Made by a program: the position numbers and the translations under genes. The notes beneath the pieces were generated by a model. It was not told the origin of the DNA. It was given only the letters and a program-made list of their open reading frames with translations, and made no database searches. A stretch of DNA of 64,000 bases from Pirellulales bacterium (GTDB lineage: Bacteria > Planctomycetota > Planctomycetia > Pirellulales > UBA1268), in the NCBI GenBank assembly GCA_018401745.1, contig JAGYJY010000019.1:1-64000 (forward strand). Reading direction: 5' to 3'. Below are positions 27,662 through 63,774 of the stretch, in pieces. Each line of letters begins with the position of its first letter. The stretch's first letter is position 1.

Positions 27662-27732
27662 GGGACGGGTCCTCGGGCCGCGAAGCGGCCTCGGCACAGC
27701 CGAGGTGCCTCCGGCACCCGAAGACCCGTCCC
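27662..27732. repeat. Cloverleaf palindromic repeat, copy 3
   Basis: Same orientation and three-hairpin layout as copy 2: outer arms 27662-27677 and 27717-27732 (one G-A difference), hairpins CCGC-gaa-GCGG, CCTCGGC-aca-GCCGAGG and TGCC-tcc-GGCA. It lies between the convergent FKBP and ThuA-dehydrogenase genes. Confidence 0.9.
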
Positions 27733-27810
27733 GCTTGCATATCCGCTACGGCAGTTCTGCCTCCGGCACCCGAAGACCCGTCCCGCTTGCATATCCCGCT
27801 ACGGCAGTTC
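27706..27810. repeat. 52-bp tandem duplication including the cloverleaf right arm
   Basis: 27706-27757 is repeated at 27758-27810 with a single extra C near 27797. The unit starts at the TGCC hairpin of copy 3, includes its right outer arm and ends in GCTACGGCAGTTC. The second unit forms the apparent C-terminal coding end of the minus-strand gene. Confidence 0.9.
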
Positions 27811-30800
27811 TGCGGTGATTGCCATCACGATCGGGTGCCGTGGAGTCGTTGCCCTTGGCGAGTTCGACTGAGCGGATCAGCTCCGCTCGCTGCGGCTCGA
27901 TCGCGAGATACCGCAGCTGGCGGCCACCCCGCAGCTCAAACGCATACTCGCTGCCGGGCACGTCGATGCGGCGGACATAGTCGACCAGATGCTCGCCATT
28001 GACGAGCGGGTGCTCTTCGACTTCGCCGTCGTCGTAGTGCAGCCGCACCGTCATCGAGACAGAGCCATTGGGCGTGGCGGGCGAGCCCCAGCCGGAGATG
28101 CCTCCCAGGATGTGAATCGCCTTGGCAGGTGAGGAGAGCGGCAGCGACACGCTCGAAGGCATCGTCGGGGGGACCTCTCCAATCGGGCCGTTGAGCATGA
28201 TCACGTTGGGCACAGAATCGCCGACCGGATCGACCAGCTGGAAGGGCACGCCCTTGAAGGTCTTGGGGCCCCAGTCGTCAAAAACGACCGTCTCCCCGCG
28301 GTTGTTGACGTCGTAGAACATGCCGCGGGTGCTAACCACCGTGGCGGCCTTGGCCAGCGGCAGCGGCAGATACGTGCCCTTCGCCGTGAGAAACGCGATC
28401 AGGTCGGCAAACTTCGCCGGAGGAATCTGCTTCTCAAAGCCGACCGGCATCAGCGAGTTGCTCGAGGGGAGAAACTCGTCGATCTCCTCCCGCTGAATCG
28501 CAAACCGCTTCGCCTCTGCGTCGACAATCTCGATCGCCGTGCGGCTCTCAGACGCCAGCAGGCCCGTGACCACCTTGCCGTCTTCGGTGATCACGGTGTA
28601 GGCCCGGTAGTTGCCTTCCACCGAGCGGTTGGGGTCGAGGATGTGGATCAGCAACTCCTGCGGCGGATGCACCGCCATCCCGGTGAGCTCCGGGCCCACC
28701 TGGCCGCCTTCTCCCGAGTGCCTGTGGCACTTGCCGCACTGCTCTTTGAAGATCGCCTTGCCGCTGGTGGCGTTTCCGCCGGCGAGCACGATCGGCAGGA
28801 GCTCATCGATCACCTTCTGGCGGTCGGCGTCTGGCAGACCACCGCCTGAGGCGATCATCGCGCGGGCCCGCTCACGGACCTTCTCATCGGGATGCTCAGC
28901 AAGCCGATTGCGTTCCACCAGCGGCAGATCGGTGAGCCGCACCGTGCCGTCTTCGATCAGATCCACGAGCACACTCACCCACTCGCTGTTGCCCACGGCC
29001 ACCCGGAAGGCGGCATCCCGCACTGCCGGCGGCAGCGTCGTGGCTCGCTCCACCAGTGCCTCAGCCACCCCCTCCCCCTTGGAGAGTCCAATCGCCGCAA
29101 GCAGGCCTTCGGCAAGCTCCGGGCTTGTGCGGGCGTCAATCAGCTCGAGCACCTCAAGCGCCGCCTCGCCGTCTGCCGGCCGCATGCTCACCAGCCGTGC
29201 CGCCGCCTCGCTGCGGGCCTCGCCGGCTGCCGACGCATCTTCAATCACCGCCATCAGCGCTGCGACAACCTGATCCATCGCATCGTCAAGCACATCGCTG
29301 CCAGACCGCTGCACAAAAGCAATCAAATCGCCCTGGCTCGCCACGGGGAGCCGGGCCATCAGGCCCACGATCGCCTCCTGGCTCTGCTTGCCAAAGGCAA
29401 TGGCCTCTCCCTTCGGCCAGCCTCGGGAGAGCCCCGCCACCACAGCGGCGGCCACTGCAGGCGGCGCATCGGCAAGATGAACGACAAGCCGGTCGACCTC
29501 GTCGGCCTTCCCTCCCCGGGCCACATGCTCGGCAACCCGCTCCACCAGCGCGATCCGCTTGGGATCGACCGCGGCATCCGCCGAGACGAGCCCCGGCAGC
29601 ACATGCTCAGCCTGCACCGCCGCCGCAGCGGTCGCCGCATCGCTCAGCACCGGATCATCAAAGGTGCGACGGTCGGCAAGCATGTCCATCACCAGCCGGC
29701 CTGCTTCTGCCGACGAGGGCCACTCCGAGAGGGCCTCAAGCACCGCCAGGCGAACCAGCGGCGCGATGTCGTGGGCCACGTCTGATTGGGCCAGCGGCAA
29801 AAAGATTTCTTCGGTGCGGGGCAGCGCCTTGACGGCATTCATCCGCACGCCGCTGGAGGGATGCTCAACCGCCGCCACCACAGCCGCCACGGCGTCGGCA
29901 TCGGCATGCTCGCCCTCGAGCAGCCCGAGCGATTTCAGCGTCCAGATCGCATGGATCGCGGCTGGATTCAGGCCGATGCCATCCACCGAGCGATCCTGCA
30001 CAAGCCTGATCAGGGCTGCCGCCACATCCCGGCCGCCATCGGCTCGACCTGCCGCCCGATCGATCAGCGCCCGCTGCGCGAGCGTTCGCCAGAGCATGGT
30101 GCTGTCGGCAAGCGCCGCGACCAGTTCGTCGGCGGTGGCGTCGGCGAGGGTCGTGCGTTCGCCTGCGGCTGCCCCGTCATGCGTCATTCGCCAGATGCGA
30201 CCATGCGTCTTGTCGCGAAGCGGCGTCTCGTAGGCGTTGCCCTTGCCGTTTTCAAAGCCCTCCGGCGTCGGGTTGTGCTGCACGATGAAGTTGTACCAGT
30301 CGACCACCCACAGGCTGCCGTCCGGGCCCACCTCGGCGATGATCGGCGCGGTCCACTCGTCGTCGCTGGCAAGCTGGCTGTAGGCCATCCGGCTGCGGAA
30401 GCCTGCCCCCGAGGGGCTGATCTCAAACGCCGCGACCACGTGGCCCGTCGGCTCGCAGACAAACGCTGTGCGGTTCCAGTACTGCTCTGGAAACGCCCGG
30501 GCGGTGTAGAGCCGGTGGCCAGCGGCGGCCGTGAAGCGGCCGTGGTGATCGACCTGCCGCACGGGCGCCTTCCCGTCGACCGCCCCCTCCCGCGGTGCGA
30601 TCTCCATCTCCGGATCGCCGGCGATGCCGCGGAGCGTGGTGGCGGTCCAGCCCCGCACCCGCTCATACACCCGGTTGGCCAGCGGCATGTGCTCGCTCGG
30701 GTTGCCATTGGCGGTCGAGCCAAACACCAGGCCTTCCTCGCTGAAGCCAAAGCCCCAGGAGTTGTTGTTGGTGCTGCGGAGAAACTCGAGCTTCGAGCCG

Positions 30801-56098: not shown

Positions 56099-56362
56099 TT
56101 ACTCGTAATGGCTCCATAGGCGGAGCACTTTGACGATTTTTTCGGCGTCGATGACCTCATAGACAAGGCGATGCTGGATGTTGATCCGGCGGGAGTATGC
56201 ACCCTTGAGATCCCCGACGAGTCGCTCGAATGGCGGCGGGCGGCGAAAGGGGTTCTCCGCGAGCAAGGTCAGGAGGCTTTCCGCCTTGGGCCGCAATCCT
56301 GCGGCAGCAATCCGGCGGGCGTCCTTGCGGGCCTGCCTGGTGAACACGATCTGCCAACTCAC
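56099..56362 (-). CDS. yoeB: YoeB-family mRNA interferase toxin
   Basis: 87 residues from GTG 56360-56362 (VSWQIVFTRQARKDARRIAAAGL), which overlaps the antitoxin stop as GTGA; an ATG start at 56383 is possible. Later motifs NPFRRPPPFERLVGDLKGAYSRRINIQHRLVYEVIDAEKIVKVLRLWSHYE are highly typical of YoeB/Txe, with the C-terminal W-HYE. It cleaves mRNA on the ribosome. Complete and probably active. Confidence 0.92.
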   Translation of the reverse strand: MSWQIVFTRQARKDARRIAAAGLRPKAESLLTLLAENPFRRPPPFERLVGDLKGAYSRRINIQHRLVYEVIDAEKIVKVLRLWSHYE

Positions 56363-56601
56363 CAGCCTGGTTCCCGGCTGCACTCACCCGGGGGCGTGGC
56401 CAACCCTTCGCGGATCGACTCCCGCATCCCGGGAATGGAGAGGAGATGGAGGGTTTCCTGAATGGCATCCCAGTCTTCAGCGGATACCAAGACCGCGCTG
56501 TGCCGCTCACCCGCAATCAACAGGGGTTCATGCGACGCCGCAGCCTCGTCGATGAGCCGATGCAGGTTGTCGCGGGCGTCGTTGGCTGAAACGGGCGTCA
56601 T
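56359..56601 (-). CDS. yefM: YefM-family antitoxin
   Basis: 80 residues from ATG 56601, with GGAGG eight bases upstream. MTPVSANDARDNLHRLIDEAAASHEPLLIAGERHSAVLVSAEDWDAIQETLHLLSIPGM is the Phd/YefM fold; the rest is the toxin-binding tail. It inhibits YoeB and represses its own promoter. ORF extends upstream to 56718 but without a ribosome-binding site. Confidence 0.92.
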   Translation of the reverse strand: MTPVSANDARDNLHRLIDEAAASHEPLLIAGERHSAVLVSAEDWDAIQETLHLLSIPGMRESIREGLATPPGECSREPGW

Positions 56602-56726
56602 CACCACCGCCTCCAGAGGGCTTTCCTGGCCTAGCATACTCCCAGAGCCGTCCCGCCGCGGCTCCGTTTCGCCTTTCGGGCCGCCCCCGGCCTTGCCGAG
56701 TGTGTGCCTAAAAAGCATGCTTTGGC

Positions 56727-58126: not shown

Positions 58127-61100
58127 TTAGGAAGGGGGCTGCGGCCACGCTGCCTGCTCGACCATCTGAAGCGAACCGACCTCTCTGCTGCGGGCTGCCG
58201 GCTGCTCGGCGGCGATGGCCGCGAATGCCGCGGCGAGTGAGCTGGCTGGATCGGTGCGGATGTCGGTGCCGTCGGTGGGCATCATCGCAATGCCCGTCCT
58301 GGACGAGGGGGCGGAGATCACGATCCGGTAGGGCTCGCTGGTGGTGCTCGTGCCATCGACGGCGGAGATCCGCAGGTAGTGCCGGCCGGCGTTGAAGGTC
58401 GTCGTCAGGACTCTGCTGCCGCCCGTGCCCGAGCCGCTTGAGTGGACCGATCCGTTGGGCAAGACGAGCTGATGCCGGAGGGCCGGACCGGAAGGCCGCA
58501 CGATCCGGATCGTGTAGGAGCCAGAGGCCGGGATGTCGATCGCCCAGTAGTCGACGTCACCGGAGGTGTTGATCAGGTCTTCGGCCGATTCGCCCAGGGG
58601 GATCAGCGTCGCGGTCTCGCGGGTGTCGCCCGCCCGATCCGGCGGGGCAGGCAGATCAGGCTCGGGCTCGGGCTCGGGTGCTGGCGGAGGCGGCGTGACT
58701 GGCTCGGGCTCCGGTTCCGGCGGCGGCGGCGTGGCTGGCTGAGCTCGGTTCGGGCGGGTGGCGGCTCGGGTTCGGGCTGAGGCTCGGGTTCGGGCGTTGG
58801 CGGCGGCACCGGCTCTGGTGTCGGCTCGGGCTCGGGAACCGGCGCCGGCTCTGGTGTCGGCGGCAGGGGCTCGGGCTCAGGAGCTGGAGAGCCGACCGGC
58901 GGATTCACCGTCAGCGTGTAGGGCTCGGTCGCGGAAAATCCGCCCCCCTCCACCCGAACCCGGATGTCGAGCTGCTGGCCAGCCCGCAGCGTGGCGGTCA
59001 CGACCCGGTCGCGGAGCGATGACCCGCTCGATGATGAACTGCCATTGGGCCGGAAGGCGGCCAGGCTGTAGTTCCGCGGCAGGTCGTGCAGACGGACCTC
59101 ATACACGCCGTCGATTGCCGCAGTCATCGTCCACCAGTGTTCACGCCCCTCTGACTGCATCGTGGCCTGCACCGAGAGCGTGGCCGGCAGGAGGCCGGCT
59201 GTTTTGCGGGTGTCGCCAGGCAGACCCGAGCCGGGCTCGGGCACCGGAGCGGGTGCCGGCGGCGGTGGGGTGGGCTCGGGAGCGGGTGCCGGCGGCGGTG
59301 CGGGCGGAGGCAGCACGGGTGCCGGCGGCGGCGCAGGCGATGGCGTCGGCGACGCTCCGAGCGGCAGCCCGTCGCCGAGGATTTCCAGCCGGTAGGGCTG
59401 CGTCTCGCTCGGCGTCCCGGAGGGGTTCGCCCAGACCTTCACAAAGTATTGCCCCGGGTCCCAGTAGTGGAACCTCCCCAACTCGCTGAGCTCGTCCCGG
59501 TTGCCCCACTGCTGTCCTGACCAGAGGAGTGACGGAGTACCTGAGTACATGTAGTAGAGGTCGATGTCGTAGTTGCTCGGCAGATTCGTCAGCCGGACCT
59601 CAGGCAGATCGAGCTGCTCGGTGAGTGAAAACGTCCACCAATCGACGTCGTCGGCGGAGTCGAGCAGTTCCTCGACCACGAAACTCGCCGGCAGGGGCGT
59701 GGCCGTGGCCATCGTGTCGCCCGCGAAATCGGGGCGGGAGGGCGTGGTGAAGGTCAGCGGCTCAGACTGCTCGGAGCCCCGCCGCCGGCCGATGGTCGTG
59801 GCATAAACCGTGTAGCTTGTTTCCGGCTGGAGGCCCTGCAGCGTCGCGGAGGTGGCCCCTCCGGCCACGAGCGCGGCCGGCTCACCGGTCGCGAAGGTGA
59901 GCTGCACGCCGACCACTTCGCTCGCGTCGACGGGCAGATCCCATGTCACCGTGGCCCGGCTCCACCAGGCAGCGTCGGCCTGGAGGTTGGTTGGCGGGGG
60001 CGGCGGCTCGCCGGAGTCGGCGGCCACGCTGAGCACCGCCGCGAGCGGATCGACCAGGCCCCAGCCGAAGTCGTCATCGCGGCCCGGCACGCCGAGATCC
60101 TGGGCCGTCTCCTCCAGGATGCCTGGCACATACACGCTTTCGCCCAGCGTCGCGGCTCGGGCATGCACCATCGCGGCGACCGCGGCCACGTGGGGTGTGG
60201 CCATGCTCGTGCCGTTGTAGGCGGCGTAGCGGTTGCCCGGGATGGTTGACCAGATGCCGGTGCCCGGTGCCGCGATATCGACCCACTCGTTGCCGGTTGA
60301 GAAGCTGGCCGCAGTGTTGAGCGGTGTGGTGGCTGCCACCGCCACCACCCCGTCGTAGGAGGCCGGGTAGGCCCGCGGTGAACCCCACAGCCGGCTGTTG
60401 CCGGCCGCCGCGACCACGGTCACGCCCCGCTGCACGGCATAGGTGACGGCCATCTCCATGGCCATCGAGGGGCTCGTGCCTCCCAGGCTCATGGAGATCA
60501 CCTCGGCGCCGTTGTCGGTGGCCCAGACGATCCCCTCCGCCACGGCGCCGGCCGAGCCGCCGCCGTCGTCGCCGAGCACCTTGACCGGCATGATCCGCAC
60601 ATCGGGCGCCACGCCCGCGATGCCCAGGCCGTTGTTGGCCGTGGCGGCGATCGTGCCAGCCACGTGGGTGCCGTGGGAGTGGCCGTCGTTGCGGCCGTCG
60701 CCACGGCCGCCCGAGAAGTCGGCGCCCGGTCCGAACAGGCCCGCCAGATCCTCGTGATAGGCGACGCCCGTGTCGAGCACCGCCACGTTGACACCGGCCC
60801 CGGTCGTGACCGGCCAGATGCTTTCAACCTGGAGCCGGTCAAAGGCCCAGAGGTCGCTGCGGTAGGTGTCGTCAGAAGTGGCCAGCGGCCCCGCCTCGAG
60901 GGGCTCAAGGTACAGCTCCACGCGATTGTCGAGCTCCAGGCTGACGAGGTTTGGTCGGTCGTTGAGGGCCGCGATCGCGGCGGTGGCCGCCGCCCGGCCG
61001 ATGTGGGTCGACCGCTCGATCACCGGCCGGCCATCGTGGTCGAGCACGGCAACAAGGGTGGTCGTCTCATCATGGCCGAGCCCACCCAGGATGCTCTCCG

Positions 61101-61308
61101 CCGACAGGTCCTGCGAACCCAGTTGCGGTGTTGCCCAGGGGGCGGCGGAGAGCATGGCCCGAGGGTCAAGCCGTTCGACCGCGAGCGCCATCCCGCGGCG
61201 GGCTCGGTTGCGGATTCGGTCAAGGCCGCGGCGGGCCTGCCGGCTGACGGGCTCAGCCCCGCGGAGTGAACGACCGGCGGCGGCATCGGGGCCAGGGTGA
61301 GCATTCAT
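58127..61308 (-). CDS. Surface-anchored S8 subtilisin-like serine protease (frameshifted)
   Basis: About 1060 residues if one missing base near 58740 is restored. The N-terminus carries the planctomycete LEPR-like motif LAVERLDPRAMLSAA (near 45). The subtilase domain has Asp in NVAVLDTGVAYHEDL near 180, His in GHSHGTHVAGTIAAT near 215 and Ser in YNGTSMATPHVAAVAAM near 380. A fibronectin-like domain and three pre-peptidase C-terminal-type beta domains follow, joined by Pro/Glu-rich linkers. As sequenced, the main frame ends at 58603 in an Arg-rich tail; shifted by one base it reads ATPPPPEPEPEPVTPP, then DTRETATLIPLGES...VDYWAIDIPASGSYTIRIV, and stops at 58127. ATG 61308 has AGAGG before it. 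Predicted to be exported and to act at the cell surface. Confidence 0.88.
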
Positions 61309-61544
61309 GGGGCACCTCTTCATGCGTGGTGGCGAAGCGGAGGGGATGGTGGCGGCGGCTGCAGCACGGTGCTGCAGCTGGTCGCCTCGTCGCTTCGTCG
61401 CTTCGTGCCATTGGTATGCCCGTCGATACGCAGCCGAAAACCGCCGCCGCCGAGAAAAAAATCGGCTCCAGGCCGATGGTTGGGGCGGATTTCACCAGGG
61501 AGCGGCGTTTTCGCCGGGCGTGAGGCGGATGGCCTCCCGGGCTG
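61309..61544. other. Upstream region of the subtilase gene
   Basis: 236 bp with no gene. Has CTGCAGCACGGTGCTGCAG (a strong palindrome, 61365-61380 region) and CGTCGCTTCGTCGCTTCGT short tandem repeats near 61395. The subtilase promoter should lie here, next to the array at 61545. Confidence 0.4.
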
Positions 61545-61605
61545 TTCATGGCCCCTTCATGCCGCGTTCATGAGCTGTTCACGGCCGGTTCAGCTCCCGT
61601 TCATG
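61545..61605. promoter_or_regulatory. Six TTCA(TG) half-sites at exact 11-bp spacing
   Basis: TTCATG at 61545, 61556, 61567, TTCACG at 61578, TTCAGC at 61589 and TTCATG at 61600. One DNA turn between copies is the arrangement bound by dimers of OmpR/PhoB-type regulators, and such a regulator is encoded 1.5 kb away. Lies between the kinase end and the subtilase start. Confidence 0.7.
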
Positions 61606-61660
61606 GGCTCGGCCGGCAGGTGGCGGCTCGGCCGGCAGGACACTTAGCAGCGGTCACTGT

Positions 61661-63058
61661 TCAGCTGCCAGGCAGCATCGCCTCGAAGGTGGCTCCGCCG
61701 CCGGGTGTGGGCCGATGTAGGATCTCGCCGCCATGGCCGCGGAGGATCGTCTGGCAGAGGGCCAGGCCCACCCCATGGCCTCCTTCCCGGTGGCTGCTGA
61801 AAAACCGCTCGAAGAGATGCGGCACGTCGTCCGGCGGCACTCCCGGGCCGTGGTCGATCACGGCCACCCGCACCGCCTCCGCATCCCGGGCAGCTGCGAT
61901 CTCGATCCGCCCGCCGGCGGGGCTGTGGGCGACGGCATTGGCGAGCAGATTCACAAACACCTCGCGAAGCAGTTCGGCATCCCCGGTGACAATCGTGCCG
62001 GCCGGCGGCAGATCGATCCTGATACCGCGTTCGGCCGCCCGCGGGAGCAGCTGTTCGGCCGCCGCCTCCAGGATTGGCTCGAGATCGACCGGCTGCAGGC
62101 GGGCCGGATCAACGGCCGCCGACCGCGAATAGGTGAGGAGGGTCTCGCAGAGCGACTCGATCCGACGGGCGAGAGCGGCCACGCGGCGCAGCGACTCCGC
62201 CGAGTCGGCCGGGGATCGGTCTCGCGAGCCGGCCACGTCGGCTTCGAGCAGGATGCCGTGCACTGGGTTTAAGAGCTGGTGGGCCACGTCGGCATTGAAA
62301 CGAGCCTGGGCCCCCCGTATCTGGTCGAGCCGGTCGAGCATGGCGTTGAGGGTGTCGGCGACATCGACATATTCGGCATCGGCCCGGGTCAGGTCGATCC
62401 GTTCGTCGAAGCGGCCGGCCTGGATCTGACGGGCTGTGGCCCCGATGCGGGTGAGCGGCGCGAGCACCTGCACAAACAGCAGCCAGCCGATGCCCAGCAG
62501 GAGCGGCGCCCACACAAGAAACGTCCAGGCCTGGAAGGCCGCCGTGCGACGGCGGGCCGCGACCAGGTCGGCCAGCGGCGTGCCGGCGACGATCAGCGTG
62601 TTGGCGGGGCCCGCCGTGGCGGCCAGGCGATAGCGGCCGGCGACGGTCCAGAGCGAGTCGCGGTGGTGCTCCCAGCCCGGCTCCCAGGCCAGGTCGCCCG
62701 GCAGGTCGAGAGCAGCCGTGAGCGTGCCGTCGGCCTGCCAGACTCCGGCGAACCACCGCAGCGGCGGCAGGCCCTGCGGCGAGCTGCCCGCCACGAGGGT
62801 CACCACCGTGGTCGGGGCGGCAGGCATCGCGGGGAGGAGAGCGGCCGCCCGCCCGGCCTGGCCCAGAATGCCCGGGTCTGCCTGCTCGGCCGCCTTGAGC
62901 TCTGCCAGCCGCGACCACACCGCGACATCGAGGTCGCGGGCCAGGAGCTCCGCGGCGGCCCGGTAGTGGACGACCCGCAGCCCGATCGTGCTGAGCAGAA
63001 ACAGCAGGCCAAACCAGAAGAAAAACCGCCGCTTCAACGACCGCCGCCGCTCAGCCAT
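61661..63058 (-). CDS. Sensor histidine kinase
   Basis: 465 residues. Two transmembrane helices (about 12-30 and 175-198) flank an extracytoplasmic sensor region of about 145 residues. A HAMP domain (LAPLTRIGATARQIQAGRFDERIDLTRADAEYVDVADTLN, about 200-245) precedes the dimerisation helix FNADVAHQLLNPVHGI (phospho-His near 262). The ATPase domain has EVFVNLLANAVAHSP (N box), VIDHGPGVPPDD (G1), LFERFFSSH and GGHGVGLALCQTIL (G2). It phosphorylates the response regulator encoded just upstream (8-bp overlap). Signal unknown. Confidence 0.94.
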   Translation of the reverse strand: MAERRRSLKRRFFFWFGLLFLLSTIGLRVVHYRAAAELLARDLDVAVWSRLAELKAAEQADPGILGQAGRAAALLPAMPAAPTTVVTLVAGSSPQGLPPLRWFAGVWQADGTLTAALDLPGDLAWEPGWEHHRDSLWTVAGRYRLAATAGPANTLIVAGTPLADLVAARRRTAAFQAWTFLVWAPLLLGIGWLLFVQVLAPLTRIGATARQIQAGRFDERIDLTRADAEYVDVADTLNAMLDRLDQIRGAQARFNADVAHQLLNPVHGILLEADVAGSRDRSPADSAESLRRVAALARRIESLCETLLTYSRSAAVDPARLQPVDLEPILEAAAEQLLPRAAERGIRIDLPPAGTIVTGDAELLREVFVNLLANAVAHSPAGGRIEIAAARDAEAVRVAVIDHGPGVPPDDVPHLFERFFSSHREGGHGVGLALCQTILRGHGGEILHRPTPGGGATFEAMLPGS

Positions 63059-63774
63059 CGATGATGAATCCCTGACCGCGAAGGGTGGTGATCAGCTCAC
63101 GGCCGAGCTTCTTGCGGAGCCGAAGCACGACCACATCCACGATGTTGCTCACGGCGCCGCCCGCCGCGCCACCGCTTTCCGGCCGGGGGGGCCGGATGGC
63201 CGCCGCGAGCGTGTCGCGGGAGACAAGCTGGCCCCGCCGCCGGGCCAGGCAGCCCAGCGCCGCAAACTCCTGGGCAGTGAGCGGAATCCGAACTCCGTTT
63301 CGGCTGGCCGCATGGGAGCGGAAGTCGATCGTGACCGCCCCGATCTGGACAGCCGTGGTCACCTCCCCCGCGGTTCGCCGCAGCACGGCCCGGATGCGGG
63401 CCAGCAGTTCGTGGAGCCCGAAGGGCTTCACCGAGATAGTCGTCGGCTCCGAGATTGAGCGCCTCGATGCGGTCGTGCTCGTTCCGCTTGGCCGAGACCA
63501 CGATCACCGGCACGCCGCTGTGCTGCCGCAGCTTTTCCAGGACATGCTCGCCGTCGAGCCTGGGGAGCCTGAGGTCAAGCAGCACGACTGCAAACTCCAG
63601 CCGGCCGGCGGCCTCCAGGCCGGCCAGGCCATCGGCCACCTCAACCACCTCGAAGCCCGCCTCTCGCAGCCCCTGGGCCAATGCTCGGCGAGCCGCCAGC
63701 TCATCTTCGATGATGAGCACCCGGGGCAGGCCGGCGGTCGCCGTGGAGGCCGAGGTGAGTGGGGCGTCGGACAT
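63051..63774 (-). CDS. OmpR/PhoB-family response regulator (frameshifted)
   Basis: 240 residues if one extra base near 63431 is ignored. The receiver domain has PRVLIIEDELAARRAL near 20, FAVVLLDLRLPRLDGEHVLEKL (phosphoacceptor Asp near 65), VPVIVVSAKRNEHDRIEALNLGADDYL. There the frame changes (GEALRAP in sequence, VKPFGLHELLARIRAVLRR expected). The winged-helix effector domain has GAVTIDFRSHAASRNGVRIPLTAQEFAALGCLARRRGQLVSRDTL and ends VVVLRLRKKLGRELITTLRGQGFII. Alternative ATG at 63789. With its kinase it likely controls the subtilase through the 11-bp array. Confidence 0.88.

Follow-up and report, generated by a model that had tools for sequence, protein, structure and literature searches.

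Tandem 11-bp TTCA half-sites beside LEPR-type surface hydrolase genes in uncultured planctomycetes: a probable operator for an OmpR/PhoB-family response regulator

In this study, a 64,000-nt stretch of contig JAGYJY010000019.1 from a Pirellulales bacterium (the window) was analysed. The genome to which it belongs is a MAG of 2.88 Mb in 28 contigs and 74% complete. As the original prediction had described, an OmpR-type two-component system was found on one side of a short repeat array and a gene for an LEPR-type subtilase on the other, though the response regulator gene of the window is frameshifted (Table 1). The TTCA cores of the array were located on the plus strand at 61545, 61556, 61567, 61578, 61589, and 61600, in exact 11-bp steps with zero deviation, in agreement with all six positions predicted earlier. 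The flanking subtilase and kinase genes are both on the minus strand; relative to the subtilase gene, the TTCA cores are therefore on the non-coding strand, and the repeat reads TGAAC-N6 in the subtilase direction. The end of the array is approximately 235 bp upstream of the likely subtilase start codon (61308).

Table 1. Positions of the array and the neighbouring features in the window
Feature	Position	Strand	Basis or sequence
S8 subtilase of the LEPR type (VERLDPRAML), with fn3 and a weak PPC, proposed target	58603..61308	-	Pfam
CGTA, 113 bp past the array, weakly supported candidate -10 element for the subtilase promoter	61427..61430	-	
Hairpin ATCGGC-CTGGA-GCCGAT followed by seven T, between array and subtilase	61454..61477	-	
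Six 11-bp units, proposed regulator operator	61544..61610	+	GTTCATGGCCC CTTCATGCCGC GTTCATGAGCT GTTCACGGCCG GTTCAGCTCCC GTTCATGGGCT
Sensor histidine kinase, 465 aa, with HAMP, HisKA, and HATPase_c	61661..63058	-	Pfam, orthologs, model, fold match
OmpR/PhoB-family response regulator, split in two frames	63051..63774	-	

The kinase was predicted to have two long membrane-type helices and a periplasmic sensor. Its core fold matched the cores of HprS and CusS, with the kinase core alone being matched among the best results of the fold search. The regulator gene, which is intact in relatives, had one extra base in the window near 63432-63440 (minus strand), resulting in the frameshift; a true mutation and an error of MAG assembly are both possible. 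In the linked regulator, the winged helix is of the OmpR type and its recognition region is conserved; the ending of this domain around SN-V-VDV and LRLRKKLG, followed by RGQGFII, is common to the window's protein and the corresponding regulators of relatives. No array was present before the regulator gene in the 15 loci scanned, and the regulator-kinase pair thus seems not to be autoregulated through the array, which counts against the pairing of this regulator with the array.

The hairpin between the array and the subtilase gene is likely the terminator of the regulator-kinase operon. A hairpin with a T run (AAAAGCC..GGCTTTT) was also observed between the array and the LEPR gene in two other loci (L065 and L066), where it may be an attenuator or the mere end of the upstream transcript. 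Past the stop codon of the subtilase gene, an ORF at 58127-58603 (minus strand) resembles the C-terminal PPC-like repeat of the subtilase, a likeness suggesting that the gene is frameshifted in its repetitive tail. Elsewhere in the window, two adjacent small ORFs at 56099-56718 (minus strand) appeared, upon reading of their translations, to be of the YoeB toxin and YefM antitoxin types, and a 52-bp unit was found at 27706-27813 in two head-to-tail copies with a 98% match.

Matches to four units, with 3 mismatches or fewer, would be expected 0.07 times in the 64-kb window, and the chance expectation for six units in the 2.88-Mb genome, calculated from the TTCA base rate, was 1.3e-9. A search of this genome for further tandems showed no second array of at least four exact units, and the array of the window was also the only one detected with three TTCAY units. 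A profile of 153 units gave the family consensus G-TTCA-[T/C]-G-N3-C; the weight-matrix scan covered the retrieved loci.

Arrays with at least four exact 11-bp units were detected in 27 of 72 genomes of the same GTDB family, all genomes compared being draft MAGs that are mutually related. By name, the related contigs are from uncultured Planctomycetota, many of them from lakes. As controls, the reversed pattern was found in 1 of the 72 genomes, a 10-bp spacing gave one match (a perfect repeat), and a 12-bp spacing gave matches in 16 genomes, mostly near-perfect tandem repeats. Among 231 genomes sampled from other families of the order, 5 had matches, which in three of these genomes were near-perfect repeats. 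The arrays of relatives consist of 2 to 7 units; degenerate arrays occupy the same place in five genomes (G031, G067, G072, G035, and G064), and just two half-sites are kept in G068 and G081. Identity between adjacent spacers was 37% in the 11-bp arrays, versus 39% expected from column composition alone and 87% in the 12-bp control repeats. Retention of the core and the period while the spacers drift fits protein-binding half-sites.

Thirty-five of the 39 exact array places adjoin a gene for an LEPR-type surface protein (29 assigned by script motif; L053, L065, L092, L093, and L110 by reading of the sequence or by homology; and 1, in G078, reversed). In 34 of these 35, TTCA is on the non-coding strand of the LEPR gene, and none of the script motif matches had the opposite orientation. 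The five places off this rule were L060, L069, L089, and L104, which are without an LEPR gene, and L105, with reversed orientation. No NCBIfam model matched the LEPR family name, and no relevant paper was found for it in the literature search. Eight target proteins were typed, namely three GH18 chitinases with CBM2, one GH5 protein with CBM2, one GH5+GH9 protein with CBM2 and CBM3, two S8 subtilases, and one DUF1996 protein with a weak GH17 match. The original prediction had staked itself on conservation upstream of orthologous subtilases; consistent with this, the array precedes another LEPR subtilase beside an orthologous kinase (G030, L067).

The commonest order was response regulator, kinase, array, and hydrolase, and in most loci the kinase gene ends just before the array. 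In G001, the regulator and LEPR genes diverge from the array. Eight loci had an array and an LEPR gene with no adjacent kinase. Conversely, two regulator-kinase pairs (L057 in G010:C5 and L137 in G059:C123) had neither LEPR gene nor array and were faced by a convergent gene; the genes that they control may be located at other places in G010 and G059. The array-bearing loci without a kinase, together with the bare kinase pairs, indicate that the array travels with the hydrolase gene.

In GH18-type loci, CGTA was observed 45–48 bp or 35–37 bp past the array in 14 of 14 cases, the two distances differing by one 11-bp unit; CGAYC-like bases precede this CGTA by 16-17 bp. In GH5 and subtilase loci, CGTA was at 113–116 bp; in the window it occurs alone, the upstream block of the chitinase loci being missing. 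The CGAYC/CGTA arrangement resembles promoters of ECF sigma factors, such as Bacillus sigma-W. TGAAC of the array was considered as the ECF -35 element and rejected, as 35–48 bp to CGTA would misfit a 16-17-bp spacer.

The kinase clade (tblastn E below 1e-39) was present in 33 of the 72 family genomes. Exact arrays were found in 23 of these 33 genomes versus 2 of the 39 others (two genomes with simple repeats being omitted from the count), with Fisher p = 5.6e-9, a value that is indicative only since the genomes are related. The two genomes having arrays with no detected kinase of the clade were G070 (51% complete) and G083 (87%). Of 24 family genomes tested, 23 had a gene for a PhoB-like regulator, irrespective of the presence of arrays. 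These results indicate that the arrays track the linked kinase clade and not the near-universal PhoB-like regulator. The dedicated circuit proposed in the original prediction is borne out to the extent of this association; the array is not specific to subtilases, as it adjoins several kinds of LEPR hydrolase genes, some without an adjacent kinase.

From these comparisons of sequence, the array is probably a multi-half-site operator for an OmpR/PhoB-family regulator, most likely that of the adjacent kinase, controlling an LEPR-type surface hydrolase. The kinase would sense an envelope or extracellular signal and phosphorylate the regulator, dimers of which would occupy consecutive 11-bp half-sites in head-to-tail order; judging from the spacing, with two half-sites per dimer, up to three dimers could be accommodated at the array in the window. 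The bound regulator would then switch the downstream LEPR-type hydrolase gene, with activation appearing more probable than repression, and the hydrolase, presumably exported, would act as a surface enzyme. As the arrays of relatives serve chitinases and cellulases, the whole would constitute a sense-and-secrete switch whose enzyme can be exchanged.

Alternatively, the array could be bound by another, unlinked OmpR-family regulator, its place beside the kinase reflecting only the ancestry of the locus. Such a regulator would account for the eight loci pairing an array and an LEPR gene with no adjacent kinase, and a first look revealed approximately 20–40 candidate regulator loci in the family genomes; however, the co-occurrence with the kinase clade is strong, and most genomes with unlinked arrays hold a linked copy elsewhere, so that the multi-locus regulon of one regulator explains them. 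We therefore consider this alternative improbable.

Slightly less probable still is a role of the arrays as PHO boxes, through which the PhoB-like regulator would act when phosphate is limiting, with the adjacent two-component genes as bystanders. In other families of the order, the coding strand just upstream of pstS bears two or three TTCAY units with the 11-bp period (L260, L263, L264, L266, L268, and L269), which are likely the PHO box of these planctomycetes; in G242, which belongs to another family, four such units at 11 bp were found upstream of a PhoD phosphatase gene (L232:1500-1543). The PHO boxes of Streptomyces are likewise composed of 11-nt units, GTTCACC (PMC4415409). Within the family, by contrast, none of 15 pstS loci had TTCAY units in approximately 1.5 kb searched on each side, the PhoB-like gene is present with or without arrays, and the typed targets are hydrolases rather than phosphate genes. 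A PHO box of the PhoB-like protein is accordingly disfavoured.

The probability is negligible that the array has no regulatory role and is a tandem repeat arisen by chance or in the manner of a microsatellite, or a part of the kinase 3′ end: TRF reports it as a weak tandem repeat, it overlaps the kinase stop codon in some relatives, and near-perfect repeats make up a few other places with TTCA at 11 bp (L060 and L089), but the spacers vary freely around a fixed core and period, the array is conserved across genera, and it follows LEPR genes even without the kinase. A microsatellite origin was rejected on the spacer identity test, and an element of the kinase 3′ end by the existence of arrays without a kinase and of two LEPR-less kinase loci without an array.

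Returning to an operator of the linked regulator, a wider reading, possible but doubtful, is that it defines a regulon specific to this family of uncultured freshwater planctomycetes. One sensor-regulator-operator unit would be reused with exchangeable surface enzymes, the half-site would be a repurposed form of the PHO-box-like code seen before pstS in sister families, and the array would stand in helical phase with an ECF-like promoter, CGAYC-N16/17-CGTA. In the open papers searched, no report of a defined operator for planctomycete LEPR surface hydrolases was found, and the literature search on 11-bp tandem operators of the OmpR family returned nothing useful. The array provides a searchable motif for polymer-degrading enzymes that are switched together, and it connects LEPR hydrolases with a single, uncharacterised family of kinases. 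It also supplies a short DNA probe for a purified regulator, usable even with organisms that are uncultured.

Among known systems, the nearest arrangement is that of creBC-creD and blrAB, in which a tag, TTCAC-N6-TTCAC, is located in the gap between kinase and target (PMC4689548, PMC3660660). In both cases, an OmpR-family regulator and a kinase are followed by an 11-bp-period direct repeat before the target, which is creD there. The TTCA core, the period, and the place agree with the cre tag, whereas the fifth base is more often T than C, the number of half-sites is 2 to 7, the strand relative to the target is opposite, and the target is a hydrolase. By score, the linked regulator is not a CreB ortholog (123 bits, cut-off 273), nor is the kinase a CreC ortholog (116 bits, cut-off 356). 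The best NCBIfam models were CopR/CzcR for the regulator and CopS/CzcS for the kinase, which, together with the HprS- and CusS-like kinase core, recalls systems of the HprRS/CusRS type; the scores of 154 and 176 bits are well below the cut-offs of 279 and 293, placing the pair outside CopRS/CzcRS, and unlike in heavy-metal systems, no metal-resistance target was seen beside the array.

Two-component control of a chitinase is known from Streptomyces ChiS-ChiR, with direct repeats in chitinase promoters; the protein that binds these repeats is DasR, and for ChiR no binding could be shown (PMC6097792). The likeness to this system lies in the arrangement, a two-component pair together with direct repeats in chitinase promoters. 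With the Pho regulon (E. coli PhoB and Streptomyces PhoP), the array shares tandem 11-nt direct-repeat units, the Streptomyces GTTCACC being close to GTTCAY (PMC4415409); it differs in targeting LEPR hydrolases, with the pstS loci of the family being devoid of units. With 135 bits against a cut-off of 296, the linked regulator does not score as PhoB, and the separate PhoB-like gene, with approximately 250 bits, is likewise under this cut-off. Two attributes of OmpR/PhoB-type tandem operators, 11-bp direct repeats and a linked OmpR-family winged-helix regulator, were found. The module thus stands outside the Cre and Pho systems as such, and its array probably works like theirs.
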